DNA of 25,502 nucleotides, taken from NCBI GenBank assembly GCA_009668925.1, contig SBEK01000037.1, positions 1 through 25,502 of the forward strand, written 5' to 3'. This DNA is from Deltaproteobacteria bacterium (GTDB lineage Bacteria; Desulfobacterota; Syntrophia; Syntrophales; Smithellaceae). The translations under genes and the position numbers were made by a program. How positions within the stretch are numbered: the stretch's first letter is position 1; every line of letters starts with the position of its first letter. This document shows positions 479 through 12,636 of this stretch, piece by piece. Under the pieces are notes generated by a model that saw only the letters and a list, made by a program, of their open reading frames with translations, searched no databases and was not told the origin of the DNA.

Positions 479-1303
479 ATGGCCAACAAAGTCAAAGCGA
501 TCGTCCTCACCGGCAACGGCACCAACTGCGAAATGGAAATGGCGCACGCCTGCCGGCTCGCGGGGGCCGACAAAGTCGACATCGTGCATTTAAGCGAATT
601 GCTTTTCGGAGAAAAGCGCCTGCTGGATTACAACTTTCTGAACCTGCCGGGCGGATTCCTGGACGGCGACGACCTGGGCTCGGCCAAGGCCGGGGCCAAT
701 CGTTTTCTCCATGCGCCGATTGCCGGAGCCGGCGAAATGCTCATCTTCGAACTGTTGAAATTCATCAGAACCGGCGGGCTGATTCTGGGCGTCTGCAACG
801 GATTCCAGCTGATGGTCAAGCTGGGGCTGCTGCCCGCGCTTGCGGCAAACTTCACCAAGCAGAGCACGACGCTGACGTTCAATGACTCGGGGCGATTCGA
901 GGACCGCTGGGTGTATCTCAAAGCCAACGTGCAAAGTCCCTGCGTCTTCACGGACGGCATCGATCAGGTTTATTTTCCGGTCCGTCACGGCGAAGGGAAA
1001 TTTGTTCCGGAGAGTTCCGCCATCCTCGAAGAAATAGAAAAGAAAAATCTGGTTGCGTTTCAGTACTGCGATCCACAGGGCGCAGTCACGATGGACTACC
1101 CGCAAAACCCCAACGGTTCGACCCATGCCATTGCCGGCATTTGCAACGAAACCGGCCGGCTCTTCGGCCTGATGCCCCATCCCGAAGCGTTTCTGCATCG
1201 CACCAACCACCCCCGCTGGACACGTGAGGACCTTCCCGAAGATGGCCAGGGACTTGTGATTTTTCAAAACGCCGTGAAGTTCATCCGCAGCGCGGAATTC
1301 TAA
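479..1303 (+). CDS. purQ: PurQ, phosphoribosylformylglycinamidine synthase glutaminase subunit
   Basis: PurQ is a class I glutamine amidotransferase that hydrolyses glutamine and passes ammonia to PurL. The catalytic cysteine is in GVCNGFQ (about residue 106), with LNLPGGF earlier and the His-Glu pair in MPHPEAF near the C-terminus. An in-frame ATG at 470 touches the ribosome-binding AGGA (467-470) and cannot use it. The ATG at 479 sits 8 bases after it, so I chose 479 (274 residues). This is longer than the ~225-residue Bacillus type and matches the long PurQ form. The residues following the catalytic Cys look intact. It directly follows purL and probably ends that operon. Confidence 0.92.
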   Translation: MANKVKAIVLTGNGTNCEMEMAHACRLAGADKVDIVHLSELLFGEKRLLDYNFLNLPGGFLDGDDLGSAKAGANRFLHAPIAGAGEMLIFELLKFIRTGGLILGVCNGFQLMVKLGLLPALAANFTKQSTTLTFNDSGRFEDRWVYLKANVQSPCVFTDGIDQVYFPVRHGEGKFVPESSAILEEIEKKNLVAFQYCDPQGAVTMDYPQNPNGSTHAIAGICNETGRLFGLMPHPEAFLHRTNHPRWTREDLPEDGQGLVIFQNAVKFIRSAEF

Positions 1304-1345
1304 CACTCGCATCCGTCAGGGAACTTTTTAATACCGACAGCTCCT

Positions 1346-1363
1346 GCCCGGCGCATGCCGGGC
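1346..1363 (+). terminator. GC-rich hairpin after purQ, possible terminator
   Basis: A perfect 7-bp inverted repeat (GCCCGGC / GCCGGGC) with a GCAT loop lies 43 bases after the purQ stop. It is followed by GGTCAAGTTTATC, so there is no real U-tract. It is either a weak terminator or an RNA-stabilising hairpin closing the pur transcript. The remaining sequence between purQ and the next gene (1304-1584) holds no credible gene. Confidence 0.3.
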
Positions 1364-1526
1364 GGTCAAGTTTATCCGCGGCCGGGAGTTTTGATCTTCC
1401 CGCCGAAGAAAGTCTCGGTCCGTAAGTCCGGCGTTATCCGCGGCGACCGCTTTGCGGATATTCACTTTTTGCCGGAGCGCCATTCCCGATGAGAGAGACT
1501 TTGTCCCAAGGATTTCCAAGATTTCC

Positions 1527-1555
1527 TTGACAGAGCCAACCGTGTTCCCTATACT
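1527..1555 (+). promoter_or_regulatory. Sigma-70-type promoter of the chemosensory operon
   Basis: TTGACA (1527-1532) is followed after exactly 17 bases by TATACT (1550-1555), a near-consensus housekeeping promoter. The predicted transcript start is near 1562, giving a leader of only ~23 bases. That leader contains the AAGGA ribosome site (1571-1575) of the receptor gene. This implies strong constitutive transcription of the chemosensory operon; no operator is evident. Confidence 0.7.
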
Positions 1556-1584
1556 TTCCCCCACTTCACTAAGGACGTGTCGTC

Positions 1585-3783
1585 ATGATGAAAATGACTC
1601 TCAAGCGCAAGATTATCGGCCTTGCGGTGCTGGCCGCCATTTTACCCGTCGTTGTCATGATCATCTTGATGGGATCATTCCAGTCTTCCGTTTCGGAGCT
1701 GGCCTCGAAGGAACTCGGCGACGTGGCGATGGCCAACATGGCCCAAATCGCCAAGGACGTCTACGGACTGTGCGAAACATCCAATGATCTCATCCAAAAA
1801 AAAATCAACAACGGCCTGAACGTCGCCGGAAATATTCTCAAACAGCATAAGGGCCTCGACATAGGAAAAGAAAAGGTCGACTGGGACGCCGTCAATCAGA
1901 TCACGAGGCAATCGCAGAAGATCGAGCTGCCCCGGTTGATGGCGGGCGGCGTCTGGCTCGGACAGAATCGTAATCCGAATGCGACAACGCCCGTCGTGGA
2001 TGAGGTTAAACATCTGGTCGGCATCACCTGCACGATCTTCCAGCGCATGAATGAACACGGCGATATGCTGCGGGTGGCCACCAACGTATTGGATGCGGAA
2101 AAGAAGCGGGCCATCGGCACCTATATTCCGGCCGTGATGCCGGACGGTTCAGCCAACGCGGTGATTGCGGCGGTCTTGAAGGGGCAGTCCTACCGGGGAC
2201 TGGCCTACGTGGTCAATACCTGGTATTTGACGGCCTATGAACCCGTCATGGACAAGACGGGCAAAATTATCGGCATGCTCTATGTCGGCGAAAAACTGGA
2301 AGCCGTTTCCTCGCTGCGCAAAGCGATCATGGGAATGAAAGTGGGAAAGATGGGTTATGTGGGCGTTGTCGGCGGCAAAGGCGAGCACCGGGGCCGGTAT
2401 ATCATCTCCAAAGACGGCAAGCGCGACGGCGAAAATATCTGGGAGCAAAAGGACATCCACGGCCAGGCCATTATTCAGATGCTGATCACCAAGGCTCTCG
2501 CGCAGCCCAGGGGCGAGTCTTTTTATCATGAATACGTCTGGCAGAATCCGGGTGAACCCCATCCGCGCAAGAAAATCTCATCCGTCATTTACTTTGAGCC
2601 CTTTGACTGGGTTATCGTGGCGGGAACCTACGAGGATGATTTCTTCGGTCCGATCGGCCGCGTCCATGATATGATCAAATCACTTTTTGTGAAGCTCGTC
2701 GGGGCCGGTGTGGTGGTCATTCTTCTATCCGTGTGGCTCGCCTACACCCTGGCGCGCCGTCTCACGCACCCGCTTGGACTCACGACCAGGCTGGCCCAGA
2801 AAATCGCCGTGGGCGACCTCCAGCAGACGCGCGAAGAATTGGCCAAACCGGAAGCGGCGCGGATCATCCAATCGGGGGATGAAACCGGCAACCTCCTTGA
2901 AGCTTTTGAAACGATGACCGGCAACCTCGATTCGCTCATCGGCCAGGTCCACCGGTCGGGTATCCAGGTGACGACATCCGCCACGGAGATCGCCGCCTCG
3001 GCGCGCGAACTGGAGGCGACTGTCGCCCAGCAGGCGGCATCCACCACCGAAGTTACGGCCACCAGCCGAGAGATTTCCGCGACGGCCGATGATCTGGCCC
3101 AGACCATGGAGGGAGTCAACGTCTCCCTGAATGAAACGATCGGCATGGCCGAATCGGGCCGCAAAGACCTCTCCCGCATGGAAGTAGCCATGCGCGAACT
3201 GGTCAAGGCCACATCGTCCATCTCGTCCAAGCTCGCCGTCATCAATGACCGGGCCAACAAGATTTCTCACGTGGTCACCACGATCAATAAAATTTCCGAC
3301 CAGACGAACCTACTGTCGCTCAACGCCGCCATCGAAGCCGAAAAAGCAGGCGAGTTCGGGCGGGGCTTTTCCGTTGTCGCCCGCGAAATCAGTCGGCTGG
3401 CCGATCAGACGGCCATCGCGACCCAGGATATCGAACAGGTCGTAGCCGAAATGCAGTCATCCGTCTCATCGGGCGTGATGGAAATGGACAAGTTCGCGGA
3501 TGAAGTCCGGCGCGGCGTGGAAACGGTGGCCACGCAGAGCAGTCAGCTCGCGCGGATTATCGACCAGGTGCGCATCCATGGTCCGCAGTTTACCGCCGTG
3601 AAGGACGGCATGTACGGCCAGTCCCAGGGAGCACAGCAAATCAACGAAGCCATGTGCCAGCTGTCGACCGCTGCGGAGCAGACCAAGGAATCGCTTCATG
3701 AATTCAAACTGGCGACGGAGCAGCTCAATGAAGCCATCCAGGGGCTTCAGTCAGAGGTCTCCCGGTTCAGAATCAGCTCCTGA
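1585..3783 (+). CDS. Methyl-accepting chemotaxis receptor with Cache-like sensor (WspA position)
   Basis: This is a membrane-anchored chemoreceptor of 732 residues and the first gene of the operon. TM1 is about residues 9-32. A large periplasmic region (~33-368) follows, resembling a Cache-type double sensor (motifs GMLYVGEKLEAV and IISKDGKRDGENIW). TM2 is about 370-391, then a HAMP domain, and a long cytoplasmic signalling coiled coil. The CheA/CheW-contacting hairpin tip is the EAEKAGEFGRGFSVVAREIS region around residues 583-602. It lacks a C-terminal CheR-tethering pentapeptide (it ends RFRISS). AAGGA lies 9 bases before the chosen ATG; the next in-frame ATG at 1588 is also possible. By position it is the WspA counterpart. 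The Cache-like periplasmic region differs from the short four-helix sensor I recall for Pseudomonas WspA. The ligand cannot be read from sequence. Confidence 0.92.
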   Translation: MMKMTLKRKIIGLAVLAAILPVVVMIILMGSFQSSVSELASKELGDVAMANMAQIAKDVYGLCETSNDLIQKKINNGLNVAGNILKQHKGLDIGKEKVDWDAVNQITRQSQKIELPRLMAGGVWLGQNRNPNATTPVVDEVKHLVGITCTIFQRMNEHGDMLRVATNVLDAEKKRAIGTYIPAVMPDGSANAVIAAVLKGQSYRGLAYVVNTWYLTAYEPVMDKTGKIIGMLYVGEKLEAVSSLRKAIMGMKVGKMGYVGVVGGKGEHRGRYIISKDGKRDGENIWEQKDIHGQAIIQMLITKALAQPRGESFYHEYVWQNPGEPHPRKKISSVIYFEPFDWVIVAGTYEDDFFGPIGRVHDMIKSLFVKLVGAGVVVILLSVWLAYTLARRLTHPLGLTTRLAQKIAVGDLQQTREELAKPEAARIIQSGDETGNLLEAFETMTGNLDSLIGQVHRSGIQVTTSATEIAASARELEATVAQQAASTTEVTATSREISATADDLAQTMEGVNVSLNETIGMAESGRKDLSRMEVAMRELVKATSSISSKLAVINDRANKISHVVTTINKISDQTNLLSLNAAIEAEKAGEFGRGFSVVAREISRLADQTAIATQDIEQVVAEMQSSVSSGVMEMDKFADEVRRGVETVATQSSQLARIIDQVRIHGPQFTAVKDGMYGQSQGAQQINEAMCQLSTAAEQTKESLHEFKLATEQLNEAIQGLQSEVSRFRISS

Positions 3784-3794
3784 CGGATGCCGCC

Positions 3795-4259
3795 ATGTTG
3801 CTACTTCAGTTTCAGGCCGGGGCGGATCGCTACGGCCTCGATATCGAACAAGTCATCGAAGTGTCGTCTCTTGTATCCCTGAGACCCATTCCTCATGCGC
3901 CTGCGGAAGTAGCCGGAACATTCAATTACCGGGGTACCCTGACGCCGGTCCTGGACCTGACGGCTCTGCTCACCGGCACCTCCTCCCGTCCCCGAATGAG
4001 TTCGCGCATCATCCTCGTCACCTATCAAGGAGAAGACGGCCGTTCCCATATCCTGGGACTTCTGGCGGAGGCGGTTACAGAAATGATTCGCTGCAGTAAG
4101 GAAGACCTCCAGCAACCGGTCGTCTCCGTGAGCGGCGCACCCTATCTGGGAGATATGATTTTCGATGATCGAGGTTCCCTGCAGGTCCTGGACATGGAAA
4201 GGCTTTTAACCCGCGACCTGCTGTTTACTCTTTTTCCGCCCGAGGTGAGCAACGGATGA
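3795..4259 (+). CDS. CheW-type coupling protein (WspB-like)
   Basis: This is a 154-residue single-domain CheW adaptor that links the receptor to the CheA kinase at the inner membrane array. It shows the CheW fold signatures: LLLQFQAGADRYGLDIEQVIEV at the N-terminus (read as two strands) and FNYRGTLTPVLDL near residues 44-56, then a C-terminal strand pair. It starts 11 bases after the receptor stop with only a weak ribosome site, suggesting translational coupling. Its own stop overlaps the next gene by ATGA. It is one of two CheW proteins in this operon, matching WspB in the Wsp arrangement. Confidence 0.9.
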   Translation: MLLLQFQAGADRYGLDIEQVIEVSSLVSLRPIPHAPAEVAGTFNYRGTLTPVLDLTALLTGTSSRPRMSSRIILVTYQGEDGRSHILGLLAEAVTEMIRCSKEDLQQPVVSVSGAPYLGDMIFDDRGSLQVLDMERLLTRDLLFTLFPPEVSNG

Positions 4260-5650
4260 ACACCCCTCCCGCCATCTTGCGTTTTCTCGCCGCTTCCCTC
4301 GGAATGGAGGAAGACGCTGCGGGGAAGGAAGCCGTCGGCCGCGCCCTGGCCGCGGCCATGCGCCAGGAAGGGCTGTCCGATGCGGCGTCCTATGAAAAAT
4401 TGTTCTCGTCATCGCCGGACGTGCGCCAGCGGTTTATCGACGCAATGGTTGTCGGAGAAACCTGGTTTTTTCGCGACCGCGGCCCCTTCACCTATCTCGC
4501 ACGCCACAGCCGGGAATTGCGCAATCTTTGCCCCGGAGCGCCGCTTCGCATCCTGTCCGCTCCCTGCGCAACCGGTGAAGAGCCGTATTCGATCGCCATG
4601 ACCCTTCTGGCCGCGGGCGTCCCGCCGCAGGCCTTCTCGATCGATGCCGTGGATGTGAGCCTTATGGCGCTTAACCGGGCCCGAGAGGCCTGCTATGGAA
4701 GCAGCGCCTTTCGCGGCAACCTCGGAGAGGACGTCGCCCCGTTCTTTGAGACGACGCGCCGCGGACGCCGGATAACGGACCGGATTGTCCGCCAGGTCGC
4801 GTTCCTTCACGATAATCTGGTATCCCCCGGCAGCCTCGCCGCGCGCGGTCCTTATGCCGTCATCTTCTGCAGGAACTTGCTCATTTATCTGACCGCGGAG
4901 GCCCGCCGCCGGGTTTATGACCTGCTTGACGGCCTTCTTATTCCCGGCGGCCTGCTTTTCACCGGGCACACGGAAACAATTTTCTGGAGCCAGCAGGGTT
5001 ATCTCCCCATCCAGTGGGACCGGGCCTTTGCTTTATCCAAACCGCTGGAATCACCGGCGCCGAAAGCCGCAAAAAAACCGGCAGCCCTTAAATTGCCTCC
5101 GGCGGCCGCTAAGAGCCCGCCTCCCGGCGTCCATGCAGCGGGCCCGATATCCGCCGCAGCCCAGTACACCTCCGTGGTCCAGACACCCGCGGCCCAGACA
5201 CCCGCGGCCGGCGCAGTGCAGCGCCGGGCGAGGCCCGACCAAATCACGACCGCCGTCGGCACCTCTGACTCGTCCCGGAAACTTCAGGAAGCCCGCGGAC
5301 TGGCCGATCGCGGCGATACGGCGGGCGCCCTGCGCCTCTGTGAAGAGGATGTCCGCACATTCGGTCCGACCGCCGGGACATACTGCCTCATGGGCGTCAT
5401 CCGCATGGCGGATCGCGATTTCAATACGGCGGAAGACTGCTTTGTGAAGGCTCTTTATCTTGATCCCGGCCACTATGAAAGTCTTGTCCACCTGAGCCTT
5501 ATCTGCGGGCGGAAAGGGAACGAAAAGAAGGCGGCTCTCTACCGGGAAAGGGCCGAACGACAGGCGGGGATACTGAGAAAAGCAGCGCAGGAAGCCGGAA
5601 AGTTATCGGAAACCCGGTCGGATGAAGACGCGGAGTTGAAGACGACGTGA
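4256..5650 (+). CDS. CheR methyltransferase with C-terminal TPR (WspC-like)
   Basis: This protein uses S-adenosylmethionine to methylate glutamates on the receptor and so tunes kinase activity. The N-terminal all-alpha domain ends at VVGETWFFRD (~63-72). The SAM-binding core follows, with SAPCATGEEPYSIAM (~100-114) and the FCRNLLIYL motif near residue 205. Residues ~265-345 form a Pro/Ala-rich linker containing a short tandem repeat. The C-terminus (~345-445) carries TPR-like helices (GTYCLMGVIRMADRDFNTAE). The CheR-linker-TPR layout is typical of WspC-type and other alternative-function chemosensory systems. It begins with an ATGA overlap with the upstream cheW. Confidence 0.92.
   Translation: MNTPPAILRFLAASLGMEEDAAGKEAVGRALAAAMRQEGLSDAASYEKLFSSSPDVRQRFIDAMVVGETWFFRDRGPFTYLARHSRELRNLCPGAPLRILSAPCATGEEPYSIAMTLLAAGVPPQAFSIDAVDVSLMALNRAREACYGSSAFRGNLGEDVAPFFETTRRGRRITDRIVRQVAFLHDNLVSPGSLAARGPYAVIFCRNLLIYLTAEARRRVYDLLDGLLIPGGLLFTGHTETIFWSQQGYLPIQWDRAFALSKPLESPAPKAAKKPAALKLPPAAAKSPPPGVHAAGPISAAAQYTSVVQTPAAQTPAAGAVQRRARPDQITTAVGTSDSSRKLQEARGLADRGDTAGALRLCEEDVRTFGPTAGTYCLMGVIRMADRDFNTAEDCFVKALYLDPGHYESLVHLSLICGRKGNEKKAALYRERAERQAGILRKAAQEAGKLSETRSDEDAELKTT
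5180..5209 (+). repeat. Two 15-bp tandem repeats in the CheR-TPR linker
   Basis: The unit CAGACACCCGCGGCC occurs twice in perfect tandem and encodes QTPAA-QTPAA inside the flexible linker between the methyltransferase and TPR regions. It is in frame, so expansion or contraction would only change linker length. Confidence 0.85.
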
Positions 5651-6318
5651 GAGAAAATATGCCGAGTGCCGCGAAATATTGCTGGAAAGAAAAAGGAATC
5701 TTTGGCGACGGAACGTGTACGGAACTGGCCCTGTTGATCCACTGCCGCCGCTGCCCCGTTTATGCCGCAGCCGGAAGACAGCACCTGGACCAGGATTTAC
5801 CGCGGGGCTATCTGGAGGATCGGACGCCCGTCATGGCCCTGCCTAAAGAATCGGCGAGGCTCGGAACCATTTCCGTCATGGCCTTTCGCCTGTCCGGTGA
5901 GCGGTTTGCGCTGAAAACCATCTTCTTCCAGGAGGCGGCGGAGCCGTCACCGATTCACACCCTGCCGCTGAAGGTTAATCGGGTTTTTCGGGGGATCGTC
6001 AATATCAACGGAGAGCTTCTGCTCTGTCTTTCGCTGGACAGTCTCCTGGAGCTAACAGAGGATGAAGGACAACGTGCGCCGGTCGTTCATGAACGCATGC
6101 TGGTGGTCGGACGCGAAGGGCAACGCTTCGTATTTCCCGTCGAACAGATTCTGGGGGTCCATCGGGTCGCCCCGGAGGACCTGGGCGAGGTTCCCGCGAC
6201 GCTGTCGCGTTCCGCGAGGTCGCTGACCCGGGGAATCTTTCAACTGGGCGGCCGCAACGTGGGACTTCTGGACGAAGACCGGCTTTTCCCCTCCATGACG
6301 AGGAGTCTCAATCAATGA
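5647..6318 (+). CDS. CheW-type protein with N-terminal Cys cluster (WspD-like)
   Basis: This is the second CheW adaptor of the operon, 223 residues. The first ~50 residues carry a conserved Cys/His/Trp pattern: CWKEKGIFGDGTC followed by IHCRRCPVY. This is the hallmark I recall from WspD proteins and could bind a metal or cluster. The CheW domain follows (~75-215), with FRGIVNINGELLLCLSL in its core. The GTG at 5647 overlaps the cheR stop (GTGA). An in-frame ATG at 5659 is an alternative start that keeps the Cys motif. The role inferred from Wsp is receptor-kinase coupling in its own complex. The stop overlaps cheA by ATGA. Confidence 0.88.
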   Translation: MRENMPSAAKYCWKEKGIFGDGTCTELALLIHCRRCPVYAAAGRQHLDQDLPRGYLEDRTPVMALPKESARLGTISVMAFRLSGERFALKTIFFQEAAEPSPIHTLPLKVNRVFRGIVNINGELLLCLSLDSLLELTEDEGQRAPVVHERMLVVGREGQRFVFPVEQILGVHRVAPEDLGEVPATLSRSARSLTRGIFQLGGRNVGLLDEDRLFPSMTRSLNQ

Positions 6319-8687
6319 CCGATTCCACGCATACGCCCATCGACCCTCTGATGCTGGACTTGTTCCGTGTGGAGCTCGAAAACAACACCCGGACCCTCGA
6401 ATCGGGCCTCGTCACGGCCGAGCGCGACCAGACGCCGGAGCGGATAGAACCGCTCATGCGGGCCGCTCATTCCATCAAGGGGGCCGCCCGGATCGTGGGG
6501 TTGACGGCCGCGGTCACTCTGGCTCATGCCATGGAAGACGTCCTGTCGGCAGCCCAGCATGGGACACGGCCCCTGACATCCGATGCGGTGGACCGGCTCC
6601 TTAAAGGAAATGATTTCTTTGCCGCTCTGTCCCGTCTGGACGTAAGTGAGCTGCCCGCAGCTCTGGAAAGAGCGACCGGCGAAATTCAGGCCCAGTCGGA
6701 CCAATTGCGGGTTTTATTGGCGACGGCACCCGAGCCCTTCCCGGGACCGCAGCCGGCAGCAGCGGCGCTAACCGCCCCACCTCCTGCCGGCGCTCCGGAA
6801 ATTGAAACAGCGGCCGCTTCGCCTCCTCCGGGAAAGAACTCCGCTCTTTGCGCCGAATCGGCACCGGATACGGGAGGCGCAAATGATGTCAGCAGCGCTG
6901 TGCCTCTCGCTTCGCCCGTCATCCGCCCCCGCGCCGCGCCGGATAAAGGAGAAGGTGGTCTGGTGCGCGTCCGGGCGGAAAACTTGAACCGTCTGATGGC
7001 TCTGGCCGGTGAATGTCTGGTTCAATCCCAAACCGTCAAAACAGTCTATCAAAGTCTGCTGCGGCTGAAAAAAGACATCTTCGAGGTGGAAAAGCCCCTT
7101 CGCCGCTCTCTGGAATCTCCAGCCGGGAATGGAGACGACGAAAGCTCGGATAGTCTGCAGGAAACCCTGACCCGCGTCACCCAAGCCGAACAGACCGTCG
7201 CCCGGGATATCATCCGGTTCGAACGCTTCTCGCGGCGACTGGAGCATCTGGCGCATCGTCTCTACAATGAAGTCATCTCGAGCCGCATGGTGCCTTTTTC
7301 CGACGGCCTGCACGGCTTTTCGCGCATGGTCCGGGATCTGGCCCGGGAAACCGGGAAGCAGGTCCGCTTCGAAATCGCCGGTGAGGCCACGCCGGTCGAT
7401 CGTGACATCCTGGAGAGACTGGAAGCGCCCCTGTCCCACCTCATCCGCAATGCCATCGACCACGGCATGGAAACGCCCGCCGAACGGGAAGCGGCCGGTA
7501 AACCCGCCGAAGGAACGCTTGTCCTGGAAGCCCGTCATGTCGCCGGGATGTTGAACATTTCGCTCTCCGATGACGGCCGGGGCATCAATTCAGAAGACCT
7601 GCGGGGGAAAGTGGTGGAAAGAGGCTACGTCTCGCCGGAGATGGCCGGAAGCTTAAGCCGGGCGGAGCTTTTTGAATTCCTCTTCCTGCCGGGGTTCTCG
7701 ACGGCCAAAACCGTGACGGAAATTTCCGGACGCGGCGTCGGCCTCGACGTCGTCTTTAACATGGCTCATGAAGTCGGAGGCACCGTGCGGGTCGATGCCG
7801 AAGCCGGCCGCGGCGCTCGTTTCCATCTGCAGCTGCCGCTGACGCTCTCCGTCGTCAGAACCCTGCTTTTGTCCATCGGCGATGAACCCTATGCGCTGCC
7901 GTTATCGCGCATCGACCGCGTTCTGTCGCTCACGCGGACCGATATCCGCGAGATTGAAGACCGTTCTTATTGCACGCTGGATGGGGAACATATCGGTATC
8001 CTCGGCGCGCGCCAGCTTTTTCAACTGCCGCCGGCACCCGCTGCCGGCGCAACTTTCTCGGTTGTTATCATCAGCGACCGTCTGAATCGTTACGGTCTGG
8101 TCGTTGATCATGTCATCGGCGAAGAAAGCCTGGTCGTCCGGCCGCTCGACAGCCGTCTCGGGAAGATTCCCAATATCAGCGCCGGAGCCATCCTCGACGA
8201 CGGCTCGCCGGTCGTCATCTTTGACGTGGATGATCTGGTGCGATCCATCCACCAGCTTCTCACGGCCGGAAAACTTCAAAAAATCGGCAAGGGGCGCCAG
8301 GCCCTGCCCACCGGAAAAAAGCGCATCCTCATCGTTGATGATTCTCTCACCGTTCGCGAAGTCGAGCGGCGGCTTCTGGAAAATGCCGGCTACGACGTCA
8401 CCACGGCCGTGGACGGTGTGGACGGCTGGAACATTCTGACGGCCCATTCGTTTGATCTCCTCATCTCCGACGTCGATATGCCCCGCATGAACGGCATTGA
8501 ACTGGTCCGCACCGTCAAAGCCGATCCGCTCCTGAAAGACGTGCCGGTCATGATCGTTTCTTACAAGGATCGCGAGGAGGACCGCCTGCGCGGCCTCGAA
8601 GCCGGTGCGAACTATTACCTGACGAAGGGCAGCTTTCACGATGAGAGTCTGCTGACGGCCGTCCTCGATTTGATCGGAGGCCCCTGA
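6315..8687 (+). CDS. CheA-receiver hybrid histidine kinase (WspE-like)
   Basis: This is the central kinase of the pathway, 790 residues, cytoplasmic. Domains in order: an HPt/P1 domain with the phosphorylatable His52 (RAAHSIKGAARIVG), and a Pro/Ala-rich linker (~135-210) with no recognisable P2 domain. Then come a P3 dimerisation region (~215-330) and a P4 ATPase with the N box LIRNAIDHGME (~373-383) plus DDGRGI and GRGVGLDVV boxes. A P5 CheW-like domain (~510-640) follows, then a C-terminal receiver (~665-790) with VDDS and the phosphoacceptor Asp719 in ISDVDMPRMNG. This P1-P3-P4-P5-REC layout is that of WspE. The expected targets of His52 are its own receiver, the CheB and the terminal response regulator. 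It starts with an ATGA overlap; its stop overlaps cheB by one base (TGATG). Confidence 0.93.
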   Translation: MTDSTHTPIDPLMLDLFRVELENNTRTLESGLVTAERDQTPERIEPLMRAAHSIKGAARIVGLTAAVTLAHAMEDVLSAAQHGTRPLTSDAVDRLLKGNDFFAALSRLDVSELPAALERATGEIQAQSDQLRVLLATAPEPFPGPQPAAAALTAPPPAGAPEIETAAASPPPGKNSALCAESAPDTGGANDVSSAVPLASPVIRPRAAPDKGEGGLVRVRAENLNRLMALAGECLVQSQTVKTVYQSLLRLKKDIFEVEKPLRRSLESPAGNGDDESSDSLQETLTRVTQAEQTVARDIIRFERFSRRLEHLAHRLYNEVISSRMVPFSDGLHGFSRMVRDLARETGKQVRFEIAGEATPVDRDILERLEAPLSHLIRNAIDHGMETPAEREAAGKPAEGTLVLEARHVAGMLNISLSDDGRGINSEDLRGKVVERGYVSPEMAGSLSRAELFEFLFLPGFSTAKTVTEISGRGVGLDVVFNMAHEVGGTVRVDAEAGRGARFHLQLPLTLSVVRTLLLSIGDEPYALPLSRIDRVLSLTRTDIREIEDRSYCTLDGEHIGILGARQLFQLPPAPAAGATFSVVIISDRLNRYGLVVDHVIGEESLVVRPLDSRLGKIPNISAGAILDDGSPVVIFDVDDLVRSIHQLLTAGKLQKIGKGRQALPTGKKRILIVDDSLTVREVERRLLENAGYDVTTAVDGVDGWNILTAHSFDLLISDVDMPRMNGIELVRTVKADPLLKDVPVMIVSYKDREEDRLRGLEAGANYYLTKGSFHDESLLTAVLDLIGGP

Positions 8688-9709
8688 TGCCTCTGACGAT
8701 TGCCATTGCTCATCGTGACACAACCGCTCTCGTTCTTGTCCGGCAAATCATTTCCCAGGAAACAGACTATAAAATAATCTGGACCACGGGCAGCGGGGCC
8801 GACCTCCTCGCGAAATGCCGGCGCGAACCGCCGGATCTGCTGCTTGTCGATCTGGCCCTGGCCAATGTCAACGGCGCTCAGCTGATCTGCGACATCATGA
8901 AGGAGGCCCCCTGCGCCATTCTGATTCTCTGTGATGCTCTGGCCCGGCAGGCGGGAAAAGTTTTCGAGGCTATGGGGTGCGGAGCACTCGACGCTATCGC
9001 CACACCTGTTCTTAAGGACGATGGTTTCGTGGCGGGACGGGACATCCTGCTCAAAAAAGTCGTTACGATGGCCAAACTTCTCGGCAATACAGCCCAACCG
9101 GCTCAACCGAAAGCCAGCAAAAGCCGGCCTGCACCGGGGCGCCTGCCGCACCTGATCGCGATCGGATCCTCCACAGGAGGTCCCAGGGCTCTGGCGACCA
9201 TTTTGTCCGGCCTTCCTGAAAAACTGGATGCCGCAGTGGTCATCTGTCAGCACGTCGATCAGCAGTTCGCCCAGGGTCTTGCCGAATGGCTGAACTCGCA
9301 ATCGCCGCTTGCCGTGGCCCTGGCCGAGGAAGGCATGCGGCCGCGCCCCGGTGTGGTTCTCGTCGCGGGAACGAACGATCATCTCGTCTTCGGCCCGGAT
9401 CAAGCCCTCCACTATTCGGAACATCCCCGGGAGTATCCTTATCGCCCTTCCGTCAATGCGTTCTTTGAAAGTATCCGGCAGTACTGGCCGCAGAAGGATC
9501 TGGCGATTCTCCTCACGGGCATGGGACGCGACGGCGGGGAAGGACTTACGGCGCTCCGCAGGATGGGCTGGCACACCATCGTCCAGGATGAAGAAACGTC
9601 CATTGTCTATGGAATGCCCGCAGCAGCTGTGGAACTGGGGGGCGCGGTGGAAATCCTGCCGCTGAAAGAAATCGCCGGAGCCATTCTAAGAAAGGTTCAA
9701 TTAAAATAA
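8687..9709 (+). CDS. CheB-type methylesterase with degenerate receiver (WspF-like)
   Basis: This is a 340-residue protein that removes methyl groups from receptor glutamates, opposing CheR. The C-terminal esterase domain (~153-338) has a complete catalytic triad: Ser162 in GSSTGG, His189 in CQHVD and Asp282 in GMGRDGG. The N-terminal receiver keeps the phosphoacceptor Asp55 (LLLVDLALAN). By eye, however, it has His9-Arg10 where receivers carry the acidic metal-binding pair. It also has Cys instead of Thr/Ser in ILILCDA and no Lys in the GALDAIATP loop. The block VFEAMGCGALDA and the overall layout resemble WspF. It is translationally coupled to the kinase. The altered receiver may be weakly phosphorylated or not at all. 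Confidence 0.91.
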   Translation: MPLTIAIAHRDTTALVLVRQIISQETDYKIIWTTGSGADLLAKCRREPPDLLLVDLALANVNGAQLICDIMKEAPCAILILCDALARQAGKVFEAMGCGALDAIATPVLKDDGFVAGRDILLKKVVTMAKLLGNTAQPAQPKASKSRPAPGRLPHLIAIGSSTGGPRALATILSGLPEKLDAAVVICQHVDQQFAQGLAEWLNSQSPLAVALAEEGMRPRPGVVLVAGTNDHLVFGPDQALHYSEHPREYPYRPSVNAFFESIRQYWPQKDLAILLTGMGRDGGEGLTALRRMGWHTIVQDEETSIVYGMPAAAVELGGAVEILPLKEIAGAILRKVQLK

Positions 9710-9721
9710 AGGAATTATATT

Positions 9722-10942
9722 ATGCCAGAAAAAGAGACGCCCATTTTCACCCGGTCCGGCCAGGACCATGCCGCAACGCTCACGGCTCATAAGATCAAGG
9801 TTCTCCTCATCGACGATCAGGCCATTGTCGGCGCAGCCGTGAAGCGGATGCTCGAACCGGAGACCGATATCATTTTTCAATTCTGCCAGGATCCGACGCA
9901 GGCGATCCCGACAGCCGCCGAGTTTGCCCCGACCGTCATCCTCCAGGATCTGGTCATGCCGGACATTGATGGCCTGACCATGGTAAAATTTTTCCGGGTT
10001 CATCCCCAGTTGAAGAATGTGCCTCTGATCGTTCTGTCCTCCAATGAAGAGGCCGTGACGAAAGCAAAAGCGTTTGAGCTCGGAGCCAACGACTATCTCG
10101 TGAAGCTCCCGGACCGGATTGAACTTATCGCCCGCATCCGCTACCATTCGCAGGGCTATATCAATCTGCTGCAGAGAAACGAGGCGTATGCCGCCCTCTT
10201 GGCCAGCCGTCAGGCGCTCGCCGCCGAACTCGCGCAGGCGGCAGACTATGTCGTATCGCTCATGCCGGAACCTCTTCCCACGGGAAGCATCACCACGGCC
10301 TGGCGCTTCTTTCCGAGCGCCCAGCTGGGAGGCGACAGCTTCGGCTATCACTGGATCGACGAGGACAACTTCGCCATGTATCTTCTCGACGTCTGCGGAC
10401 ACGGAGTCGGCTCGGCGCTGCTGTCCGTATCCGCCTTCAATGCCATCCGCTCCCAGACACTGCCGAAAACGGATTTCCGGTTGCCCCAGCAGGTTCTGGC
10501 GACGCTTAATGATGCCTTCCAGATGGAACACCACAACAATCTCTACTTCACTATCTGGTATGGCGTTTTCAATCGCCCCAGCCGCGAGCTGCGCTTTGCC
10601 AGCGGCGGACATCCTCCGGCTTTCCTTGTTTCACGAGAGGGAGGGCTCACCAAGCTGATGACGAACAATCTGTTTATCGGCGGGCTGCCCGAAAGCACCT
10701 ATCAGGGAAGCTCTGTCGCCGTCGGGCCGGGCGCTCATCTGTATATCTTTTCGGACGGCGTTTACGAAGTGGACCATCCCGGCGGCGAAATGTGGACGCT
10801 GGACGAACTGGGAGCCTATGTGCTGGAAAGCCGCCTGGGCAGCGGCGAAGACATCGATGCCCTCTATCACAAGATGCAGGCTTACAGGGGTCAGGATATT
10901 CTGGATGACGACTTCTCCATGCTGGCCGTTCAATTCACCTGA
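9722..10942 (+). CDS. Response regulator: WspR-like receiver fused to PP2C/SpoIIE phosphatase
   Basis: This is the output protein of the operon, 406 residues. The receiver (~25-145) is complete: Asp31-Asp32, phosphoacceptor Asp76 in LQDLVMPDIDGLT, Ser106-Ser107 and Lys128 in NDYLVKLPD. The stretches PTVILQDLVMP, GANDYLVKLPD and ELIARIRYHS closely resemble the WspR receiver as I recall it. A helical linker (~150-180) leads to a PP2C/SpoIIE-type Ser/Thr phosphatase. Its metal-binding motifs are all present: GGDSFGY, DVCGHG, FSDGVYE and DDDFSML. WspR would instead carry GGDEF here. The likely substrate is a phosphorylated STAS-type anti-sigma antagonist or similar protein; none is encoded nearby. 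AAGGA lies 8 bases before the ATG. It is the last gene of the operon, and no clear terminator follows. Confidence 0.93.
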   Translation: MPEKETPIFTRSGQDHAATLTAHKIKVLLIDDQAIVGAAVKRMLEPETDIIFQFCQDPTQAIPTAAEFAPTVILQDLVMPDIDGLTMVKFFRVHPQLKNVPLIVLSSNEEAVTKAKAFELGANDYLVKLPDRIELIARIRYHSQGYINLLQRNEAYAALLASRQALAAELAQAADYVVSLMPEPLPTGSITTAWRFFPSAQLGGDSFGYHWIDEDNFAMYLLDVCGHGVGSALLSVSAFNAIRSQTLPKTDFRLPQQVLATLNDAFQMEHHNNLYFTIWYGVFNRPSRELRFASGGHPPAFLVSREGGLTKLMTNNLFIGGLPESTYQGSSVAVGPGAHLYIFSDGVYEVDHPGGEMWTLDELGAYVLESRLGSGEDIDALYHKMQAYRGQDILDDDFSMLAVQFT

Positions 10943-11001
10943 AGGGTGAAAGAAGAAATTCACGGAAAACAGGCTCTCACGGTTCGCCGCCCCGCGCGGA
11001 T

Positions 11002-12636
11002 TTACCGGATGCAGACGCTCAAGACCTCCATCAGATCGGTTTCCCCCGCGATCACTTTGGCGACGCCACACTGGAGCAGCGTCTCCATTCCCTCGGTCAT
11101 GGCTGTTTTGCGAAGAGCCGCAATGGATTTGCGGCTGATGATCATATGCTTGATGTCGTCGGAGGCAATGAGCAACTCAAAGAGTCCCATTCGGCCGCGG
11201 TAGCCCATGTTGTTGCATGCTTCACAGCCTTTTGCTCGGTATAGTCTGAAATTATCGGTGTAAGCGAGGTTGAGCGCGGCAAAGGCCTTCTCTCCGTAAT
11301 GATGGGCAAGCTCCGCGTATTCCTGCTCCGGGGGATGATAAGCTTCCTTGCACTTGCCGCACAGGCGGCGCACCAGCCGCTGCGCCAGAACGCACAAGAG
11401 CGAATCGGCAAAGGCGAAGGGGTCGATGCCCATGTCGAGCAGACGGACGATGGTTTCCGGGGCATTATTGGTATGCAGCGTGCTCATAACCAGATGGCCG
11501 GTTGTCGACGCCTCGATCCCCATCTTAGCCGTTTCGTAGTCGCGCATTTCACCGACCATGATGACGTCGGGATCGGCGCGCAGAAAAGACCGCATTGCCG
11601 CCGCGAAATCCAGGCCGATCTTGTGATGCACCTGCAGCTGCCGGATGCCCTGCTGCGCGATTTCCACCGGATCCTCCGCCGTCCATATCTTGATGTTGGG
11701 TTTGTTGATGATCTGGAGCGCCGCATGGGCGGTCGTCGTCTTCCCCGAACCGGTCGGACCGACCAACAGAATGAGTCCGTAAGGTTTTTTCAATTGGGCC
11801 TGGAAGAGATGGTGGGCCTTGGCGGGCATCTTCAGTTCGTCAAAGGTCATGATCTTCCCGCGGGTCAGCAGACGCAGAACGACATCTTCCACATAGCCGT
11901 GTGTCGGCAGCGTAGCCACCCGGAGCTCGATTTCGTCGGCGCCCGGAACCCTGTATTTGATTTTACCGTCTTGCGGCAGACGTTTTTCGGTAATATCCAG
12001 GTCCGCCATGATCTTGATCCGGGAAACGATTGCGGCCCGGTATTCATACGGGAAATTCTTATAATGAATGCATTCACCGTCGATCCGGAAGCGCACGTTG
12101 ACAGCTTTGTCTTTGATGTCCGGCTCGATATGGATGTCGGAGGCCCGCCTGTCATAGGCATCATTGATGGCATCATGAACCAGTCTGACAACATTGACGT
12201 CCGTCTCGGATATGCCGTTTCCGGCGTCACTTTTCACTTCGCCGTTAGCATCCGCGGAATATTCGTCTTCATCCGCCGGCTCACCGATATTATAAAAATA
12301 TTCGATAAACTTCCGGATGTCCTTTTTTGATGCGGAAAAATATTCGACCGACTTCGTCTTCAGAACATTCTCGATCACGTCTTTCTTGATGATATCGTTC
12401 GGATCGTCGACGACGACGATGATTTTTCCTCCGCGGAATCCCAGAGGCACCCATAGTTCGCGCCTCAAATATTCGCAGCGCAGATTCCTGAGCAGGTCTT
12501 CCGGGATGGGGTAGTCCCTGCTGAAGTCAATGGAATTGCCGGTGACGGGAGAAGCCGCTTTTTCCTTGACTCCCTGCTTCGCGGGAATACCCGGAGCGCC
12601 GGTACTTTCTTTAACGGGGTCGCCTTTAGCATTCAT
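11002..12636 (-). CDS. GspE/PilB-family type II secretion or type IV pilus assembly ATPase
   Basis: This is a cytoplasmic hexameric-type ATPase of 544 residues that powers pilus extension or type II secretion. After a low-complexity start, residues ~42-112 look like a single MshEN/T2SSE_N-type domain. The ATPase core follows, with ASDIHIEP, Walker A GPTGSGKTTT (~292-301), Asp-box AEDPVE, Walker B DVIMVGEMRD and His-box STTGHLVMSTLHTN. A zinc tetracysteine motif (CGKC near 424 and CEAC near 467) is typical of GspE and PilB. AGGAA lies 7 bases before the ATG. No pilin, pilC/gspF or pilT lies next to it, so its exact machine is open. Its 3' end faces the phosphatase gene. It is probably co-transcribed behind the TonB-like gene. 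Confidence 0.9.
   Translation of the reverse strand: MNAKGDPVKESTGAPGIPAKQGVKEKAASPVTGNSIDFSRDYPIPEDLLRNLRCEYLRRELWVPLGFRGGKIIVVVDDPNDIIKKDVIENVLKTKSVEYFSASKKDIRKFIEYFYNIGEPADEDEYSADANGEVKSDAGNGISETDVNVVRLVHDAINDAYDRRASDIHIEPDIKDKAVNVRFRIDGECIHYKNFPYEYRAAIVSRIKIMADLDITEKRLPQDGKIKYRVPGADEIELRVATLPTHGYVEDVVLRLLTRGKIMTFDELKMPAKAHHLFQAQLKKPYGLILLVGPTGSGKTTTAHAALQIINKPNIKIWTAEDPVEIAQQGIRQLQVHHKIGLDFAAAMRSFLRADPDVIMVGEMRDYETAKMGIEASTTGHLVMSTLHTNNAPETIVRLLDMGIDPFAFADSLLCVLAQRLVRRLCGKCKEAYHPPEQEYAELAHHYGEKAFAALNLAYTDNFRLYRAKGCEACNNMGYRGRMGLFELLIASDDIKHMIISRKSIAALRKTAMTEGMETLLQCGVAKVIAGETDLMEVLSVCIR

Follow-up and report, generated by a model that had tools for sequence, protein, structure and literature searches.

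A Wsp-order operon whose response regulator carries a PP2C-type phosphatase domain

A stretch of 25,502 nucleotides (contig SBEK01000037.1 of assembly GCA_009668925.1, from a Deltaproteobacteria bacterium of the Smithellaceae; hereafter the window) was found to contain a seven-gene operon in the Wsp order, the last gene of which encodes a WspR-type receiver joined to a PP2C/SpoIIE phosphatase (REC-PP2C). Our preferred reading, to which we assign a probability of roughly two in three, is that a Wsp pathway ends in this protein as its response regulator and that the PP2C output acts on a STAS partner switch. The operon, the kinship of the receiver, the approximate position of the joint, the conservation of the catalytic residues and the conservation of the protein across phyla are set out below, together with the observation that RsbW-like and STAS genes are commoner near the REC-PP2C family than near WspR-GGDEF.

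The operon and its phosphatase domain

The REC-PP2C gene is an open frame of 406 aa and closes an operon (Table 1) whose order (MCP, CheW, CheR-TPR, CheW, CheA-REC, CheB, regulator) is that of Wsp and whose genes all lie on the + strand. Four of the six gene junctions are overlaps of 1–4 nt and two are gaps of 11–12 nt, while genes for a T2SSE-type ATPase and a TonB-like protein follow 3' of the REC-PP2C gene in the opposite orientation. The promoter match ahead of the operon is the best of 5 promoter-like matches in positions 1200–11200, where 2.6 are expected by chance, and inverted-repeat and terminator scans gave nothing useful. The initial annotation had recognised the wspR-like gene correctly; the full upstream Wsp operon in the window goes beyond it. 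The same six upstream genes followed by REC-GGDEF were present, in the same order, in 19 of 21 WspR-GGDEF control loci, the other two (L230 and L234, the latter near a contig end) showing CheB only. The receiver of the window CheB gave a weak Pfam score (36.5 bits) and, by eye, has a single Asp where an acidic pair is expected, so that its phosphorylation may be altered. Additionally, the N-terminus of the window CheA was matched twice, at separate places, by the CheA of L007 and likewise by that of L011, as if each of these carried two Hpt-like stretches.

Table 1. Features of the window and, in the last row, of the RsbW-GNAT-like genes in related loci (residue numbers refer to the REC-PP2C protein)
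Feature	Position	Strand	Basis
Sigma-70-like promoter match	1527..1555	+	Consensus match only, 11/12, ~30 nt 5' of first gene
Chemoreceptor, WspA position: Cache_3-Cache_2, HAMP, MCP signal domain	1585..3783	+	Pfam
CheW, WspB position	3795..4259	+	Pfam
CheR methyltransferase with C-terminal TPR, WspC position	4256..5650	+	Pfam
Second CheW, WspD position	5647..6318	+	Pfam
Hybrid CheA: Hpt, HATPase_c, CheW, C-terminal receiver; WspE position	6315..8687	+	Pfam
CheB methylesterase with N-terminal receiver, WspF position	8687..9709	+	Pfam
REC-PP2C response regulator, wspR position	9722..10942	+	ORF, Pfam, structure-database matches, trees
WspR-type receiver, residues 27-140	9800..10141	+	Response_reg (Pfam), 69 bits
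Single long helix, residues 132-180, last receiver helix towards PP2C	10115..10261	+	AlphaFold2 model
Inferred fusion joint, residues 166-169	10217..10228	+	WspR-type similarity fades, PP2C-family similarity starts
PP2C/SpoIIE phosphatase, residues 214-405	10361..10936	+	SpoIIE (Pfam), 139 bits
RsbW-like HATPase_c_2 with weakly GNAT-like C-terminal region of ~350 aa	L001:11238-12767; L011:13922-15403; L072:938-2482		

Pfam detected no C-terminal GGDEF domain in the window regulator and SpoIIE in its place, so that the protein is not a WspR. Across 36 selected relatives, D205 (just N-terminal of the Pfam domain), D223 and D345 are invariant and D396/D397 are at least 90% conserved; we take these to be the PP2C metal-site aspartates. 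In line with the first description of a full phosphatase with every metal motif, and with the strong SpoIIE match (Table 1), the domain is complete in these aspartates and, by sequence, of the SpoIIE/RsbU class.

The loci examined in relatives numbered 44, each with PP2C on a WspR-type receiver, L096 (the same as L006), L012 (truncated), L013, L014, L106, L118 and L121 (generic receivers), L217 (kinase-like), and L221 and L222 (GGDEF) having been excluded before the count. Upstream sequence of 8 kb or more was available for 39 REC-PP2C loci, from several phyla; CheA and CheB preceded the regulator on the same strand in 32 of these and all six genes did so in 28, which is the outcome of the search for REC-PP2C proteins beside WspE/WspF homologues that had been proposed along with the annotation. 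Three loci (L104, L105 and L212) carry a second regulator with a WspR-type receiver between CheB and REC-PP2C (L104:10928-12385; L105:11279-12760; in L212 a 493-aa frame 1.5 kb upstream of REC-PP2C), directly ahead of the latter. Pfam identifies the output of this second regulator as a class III adenylate/guanylate cyclase in L104 and L105, and for the genome of L212 the same assignment rests on similarity. A candidate CheB-REC-PP2C fusion, suggested by protein P0240 and by long ORFs in L216 and L220, was set aside, as the extra N-termini in L216 and L220 look like a CheB shadow frame.

Kinship of the receiver and position of the joint

The top structure-database sequence matches of the window protein were WspR 3bre (1.2e-48, over residues 24–167) and WspR 3i5a (1.6e-48). 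In the receiver, 83 of 142 ungapped positions (58%) were identical to Pseudomonas WspR 3bre, compared with 31 of 106 aligned positions (29%) for the CheA receiver of its own operon and 13 of 59 (22%) for that of CheB. By analogy, the phosphoacceptor is assigned to D76 (codon 9947-9949), which, like D31, D32, S106 and K128, is invariant across the 36 selected relatives; the receiver residues had been reported as intact, and this is confirmed, while the motifs quoted with that report are all present in the translation. Taken together, the domain matches and conserved residues are far beyond chance.

In a tree of 114 receivers, built without proteins shorter than 200 aa overall and with no generic rows after the first 16, the 98 WspR-type rows formed one clade (100/99) against 16 generic receivers, and this clade includes the window protein and the two Pseudomonas WspR structures (3bre and 3i5a). 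A second tree of 52 rows, among them five generic REC-PP2C receivers, likewise united its 32 WspR-type rows (100/99.7); its generic rows were long-branched and its bootstrap was not fully settled, and their internal order was disregarded. Furthermore, an AU test rejected the grouping of PP2C-bearing WspR-type receivers with the five generic REC-PP2C receivers (p-AU 1.3e-7). Tree and AU test together reject a generic RsbU-type origin of the receiver, which falls with WspR as the initial annotation had suggested, and the window receiver is best regarded as orthologous to that of WspR. When the receiver was used as query against 14 genomes, 13 gave one or two matches at 187–282 bits with the rest at or below 61.4 bits, and the fourteenth (G009, whose REC-PP2C protein, L014, has a generic receiver) gave weak receiver matches only.

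The joint was located from the fading of one similarity and the onset of another. Mean identity to 34 WspR-type proteins with other outputs fell from 0.59 (residues 151–160) through 0.27 (161–170) to 0.08 (171–180), and 25 of the 34 local alignments stopped by residue 184, 16 of these at 165–167, while nine extended to 234–251 at low identity. Conversely, 11 PP2C proteins whose N-terminal part is of another kind all share E169, L170, A173, Y176 and P182; in the eight of them that were domain-scanned, the PP2C domain is preceded by GAF-PAS, by PAS, by a generic receiver, by HisKA plus receiver, or by nothing recognisable. Since WspR-type identity fades and PP2C-type identity starts there, we infer that the exchange point lies inside the linker helix, 26–29 residues past the Pfam receiver end. 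The output swap proposed initially at the receiver-linker boundary thus retains its joint but not its position, which lies about 26 residues further on, in the helix. Both halves also occur with other partners. As for how often the PP2C fusion arose, 4 changes are required on the tree, although a single clade is not rejected (p-AU 0.38), and four GGDEF rows stand at the base of the receiver tree on long, poorly resolved branches; the swap may have run from GGDEF to PP2C or in reverse.

Spread across phyla and partner-switch genes

With P0001 as query (E 1e-60 or better), matches were obtained in 15 of 297 genomes in the phylum of G001 (Smithellaceae), 13 of 240 in that of G007 (Kiritimatiellae) and 5 of 247 in that of G008 (Melioribacteraceae); after removal of G045 and G698 (PP2C-only match) and of G110 and G313 (generic receivers), 13, 12 and 4 genomes, respectively, had the WspR-type receiver. 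A census with the receiver as query (E 1e-30) was positive in 23 of 395 genomes in the phylum of G001 (13 with PP2C only, 3 with PP2C and cyclase, 7 with GGDEF), in 9 of 199 in that of G789 (Planctomycetaceae; 8 with PP2C, 1 kinase-like) and in 62 of 398 in that of G788 (Acidiferrobacteraceae), where no PP2C output was found among the distinct receivers from 30 fetched loci. The protein database holds at least 7999 scored relatives of the window protein, and each of the best 120 combines a receiver with SpoIIE and is at least 63% identical. WspR-clade receivers carry four output kinds, namely GGDEF, histidine kinase, class III cyclase and PP2C, the cyclase apparently constituting a fourth Wsp output of cAMP or cGMP type. 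L188 and L217 (G1297, Planctomycetaceae phylum) combine a Wsp-like operon with a WspR-type receiver and a histidine-kinase-like output, resembling the WspH case discussed below.

Partner switching, which had been predicted for the protein, is supported indirectly, by genes near the loci of some relatives, though not in the window, where no STAS or RsbW-like ORF of at least 70 aa was found. Among the 39 REC-PP2C loci that extend 2 kb or more downstream, 9 have an RsbW-like gene no further than 4.5 kb away (a STAS gene too in 4 of the 9), compared with none of the 21 WspR-GGDEF loci (Fisher p 0.021); the 39 loci include close relatives, so that the Fisher p values overstate the case, and there is dependence among the nine positives, L001 and L002 being 99% identical there and L115–L117 forming one clade. 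The background expectation for the 39 loci is 0.25 against the 9 observed, as calculated from 22 matches of at least 50 bits in 31.1 Mb of nine genomes with a different profile. In L001 and L002 the gene within 20 nt after REC-PP2C begins with an RsbW-like HATPase_c_2 domain, while in L213 the order is REC-PP2C, STAS, RsbW-like, with the STAS start ~19 nt after REC-PP2C; the remaining RsbW-like genes are those of L108, L109, L115, L116, L117 and L011, with STAS also in L108, L109 and L011. Loci without CheA upstream adjoin an RsbW-like gene in 5 of 7 cases, compared with 4 of 32 loci with CheA (Fisher p 0.004); the five (L115, L116, L117, L213 and L108) show no CheA in the 10.5 kb that precede the regulator, whereas of the remaining two L010 extends just 708 nt past it and has its che genes on the opposite strand, and L099 retains CheB. 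A search for STAS antagonists and anti-sigma kinases, also suggested at the outset, was run in the five closest genomes and found in each a STAS gene followed by an RsbW-like gene elsewhere, with no SpoIIE match on those contigs. One further full SpoIIE protein is encoded in each of G002–G005, in G004 and G005 beside a STAS gene of its own, and the STAS-RsbW pair might be served by that phosphatase.

PP2C enzymes can act on other phosphoproteins, and the substrate might accordingly be a non-STAS phosphoprotein such as a Hanks-type kinase target or an array component, a view with which the 30 of 39 loci lacking an RsbW-like or STAS gene within 4.5 kb would agree. We consider this unlikely, given that such genes occur near the REC-PP2C family and not near WspR-GGDEF, and that the domain belongs to the SpoIIE class, described in passages of PMC9239204 as dephosphorylating STAS proteins.

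The gene after REC-PP2C in L001 and L002 encodes a protein of ~500 aa, in which ~145 RsbW-like residues are followed by ~350 more (Table 1). Pfam Acetyltransf_1 was detected in the L011 homologue (30 bits), a three-homologue profile weakly matched two GNAT structures (E 7.5e-4 and 0.005), and no GNAT domain was found by Pfam in the L001, L002 and L257 copies; the C-terminal region may be termed GNAT-like, an assignment that is weak for most members. A single-sequence structure model was unusable (pLDDT 33.5). Full-length matches (>340 bits) were present in 13 of 22 genomes chosen for a WspR-type REC-PP2C; 40 genomes that lack it, drawn from the same two phyla, gave none, apart from a single partial match (G014). 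This co-occurrence (Fisher 6e-8, or 7e-7 with the partial match counted) is confounded by phylogeny, the controls being the first-listed genomes without a REC-PP2C match and the comparison covering two phyla. The RsbW-GNAT gene lies directly downstream of REC-PP2C in two genomes (L001 and L002) and follows STAS and RsbW-like genes in 3 of 12 full-length loci (L253, L254 and L255), as in L011. It is possible, if doubtful, that the array-driven partner switch ends not in a sigma factor but in an RsbW-like kinase with a GNAT-like region; if true, this target would tie Wsp sensing to acyl transfer.

Proposed pathway and comparison with known systems

We propose that array signalling would control the WspE-like CheA, which would phosphorylate the WspR-type receiver at D76, and that phosphorylation would rearrange the receiver together with the continuous linker helix, thereby altering PP2C activity. 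The PP2C domain would dephosphorylate a STAS-domain antagonist, which in that form would bind the RsbW-like kinase and free what the kinase holds. Within this scheme the phosphotransfer from CheA, the direction of control, the STAS substrate and the identity of the final target are what we infer. A Wsp-type pathway with a PP2C terminus would probably end in a protein switch and not in c-di-GMP.

The window protein might instead act by binding, in the manner of RssB or HsbR/CrsR, and directly capture a sigma factor (e.g. RpoS), with phosphatase activity secondary or absent. Its best full-length structure-database match was the REC-PP2C chain 3eq2 (2.2e-27), titled P. aeruginosa RssB, and a Foldseek search with the AlphaFold2 model (built on the 36-relative alignment; mean pLDDT 86.7, pTM 0.67) placed P. 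aeruginosa RssB first over the full length, then E. coli RssB and WspR, and next the PP2C domains of RssB, SiaA, an RsbU protein and SpoIIE; moreover, the HsbR-HsbA system is reported in PMC6482189 to regulate RpoS. The curated RssB family was also the best NCBIfam model, but its score of 105 bits is far under the cut-off of 700, the receiver is WspR-type, the PP2C aspartates are invariant or nearly so, and the RsbW-like/STAS neighbours fit a phosphatase, all of which makes direct sigma-factor capture quite unlikely. Highly improbable is a pathway that still feeds c-di-GMP through an unlinked GGDEF regulator also phosphorylated by CheA, with the PP2C protein as a side branch: GGDEF does occur on Wsp-type receivers in 7 of the 23 positive genomes of the same phylum, the three Wsp operons with both cyclase and PP2C regulators show that branching happens, and the search of close genomes covered WspR-type receivers, such that a GGDEF protein with an unrelated receiver is possible, but in the five closest genomes the REC-PP2C receiver scored 275–282 bits and the next-best at most 54.5, with no second WspR-type receiver, of GGDEF or other output, and hence no sign of the separate GGDEF regulator named at the outset as a possible real target of the kinase.

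These observations bear on how Wsp is viewed: it serves as a model both of surface sensing and in experimental evolution, and c-di-GMP is commonly taken to be its output. With four output kinds on one receiver clade and PP2C ending complete operons in several phyla, Wsp looks like a general front end with exchangeable outputs. The mapping of the joint to a few residues in one helix offers a testable rule for receiver control of unlike enzymes, and the RsbW-like/STAS neighbours provide named candidate partners.

The window operon resembles the Pseudomonas Wsp system (wspABCDEFR) in the order of its genes and in having CheR-TPR, a hybrid CheA, CheB and a regulator whose receiver belongs to the same clade, whereas Pseudomonas WspR is REC-GGDEF and the regulator here has a PP2C output. 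The sensor of the window chemoreceptor is Cache_3-Cache_2, from which the sensor type of Pseudomonas WspA presumably differs. P. aeruginosa RssB (3eq2, 3f7a) shares the REC-PP2C architecture and is the best full-length match, yet the window receiver matches WspR far better than RssB, identity to the RssB chains being 22–27%. HsbR is likewise a REC-PP2C protein and is fed through HptB; unlike HsbR, the window protein is likely fed by the chemosensory CheA of its own operon. HsbR/HsbA and CrsR/CrsA are presented in PMC6482189 as a response regulator-anti-sigma factor antagonist partner switch. Burkholderia WspH, according to passages of PMC8552884, is encoded in the wsp gene cluster and couples a conserved Wsp receiver to a histidine kinase output; it is similar to the present case in its swapped output and differs in the nature of that output, and the word 'phosphatase' is absent from the main text of that paper. 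A 2012 survey lists, among ACF pathways, REC with a family 2C Ser/Thr phosphatase and REC with a mononucleotidyl cyclase in CheR-TPR clusters (PMC3447774), and its relevant passages give no link to the WspR receiver, joint or downstream partner. As to the initial suggestion of a little-described system, the architecture class was already tallied in those passages. Wsp, PP2C and partner switching were not found joined in the titles and abstract starts listed by searches of open-licence PMC literature. As far as those searches show, four points are new: that the receiver is orthologous to that of WspR, where the joint lies, how the protein is distributed over phyla, and its association with RsbW-like/STAS genes and with the RsbW-GNAT protein.
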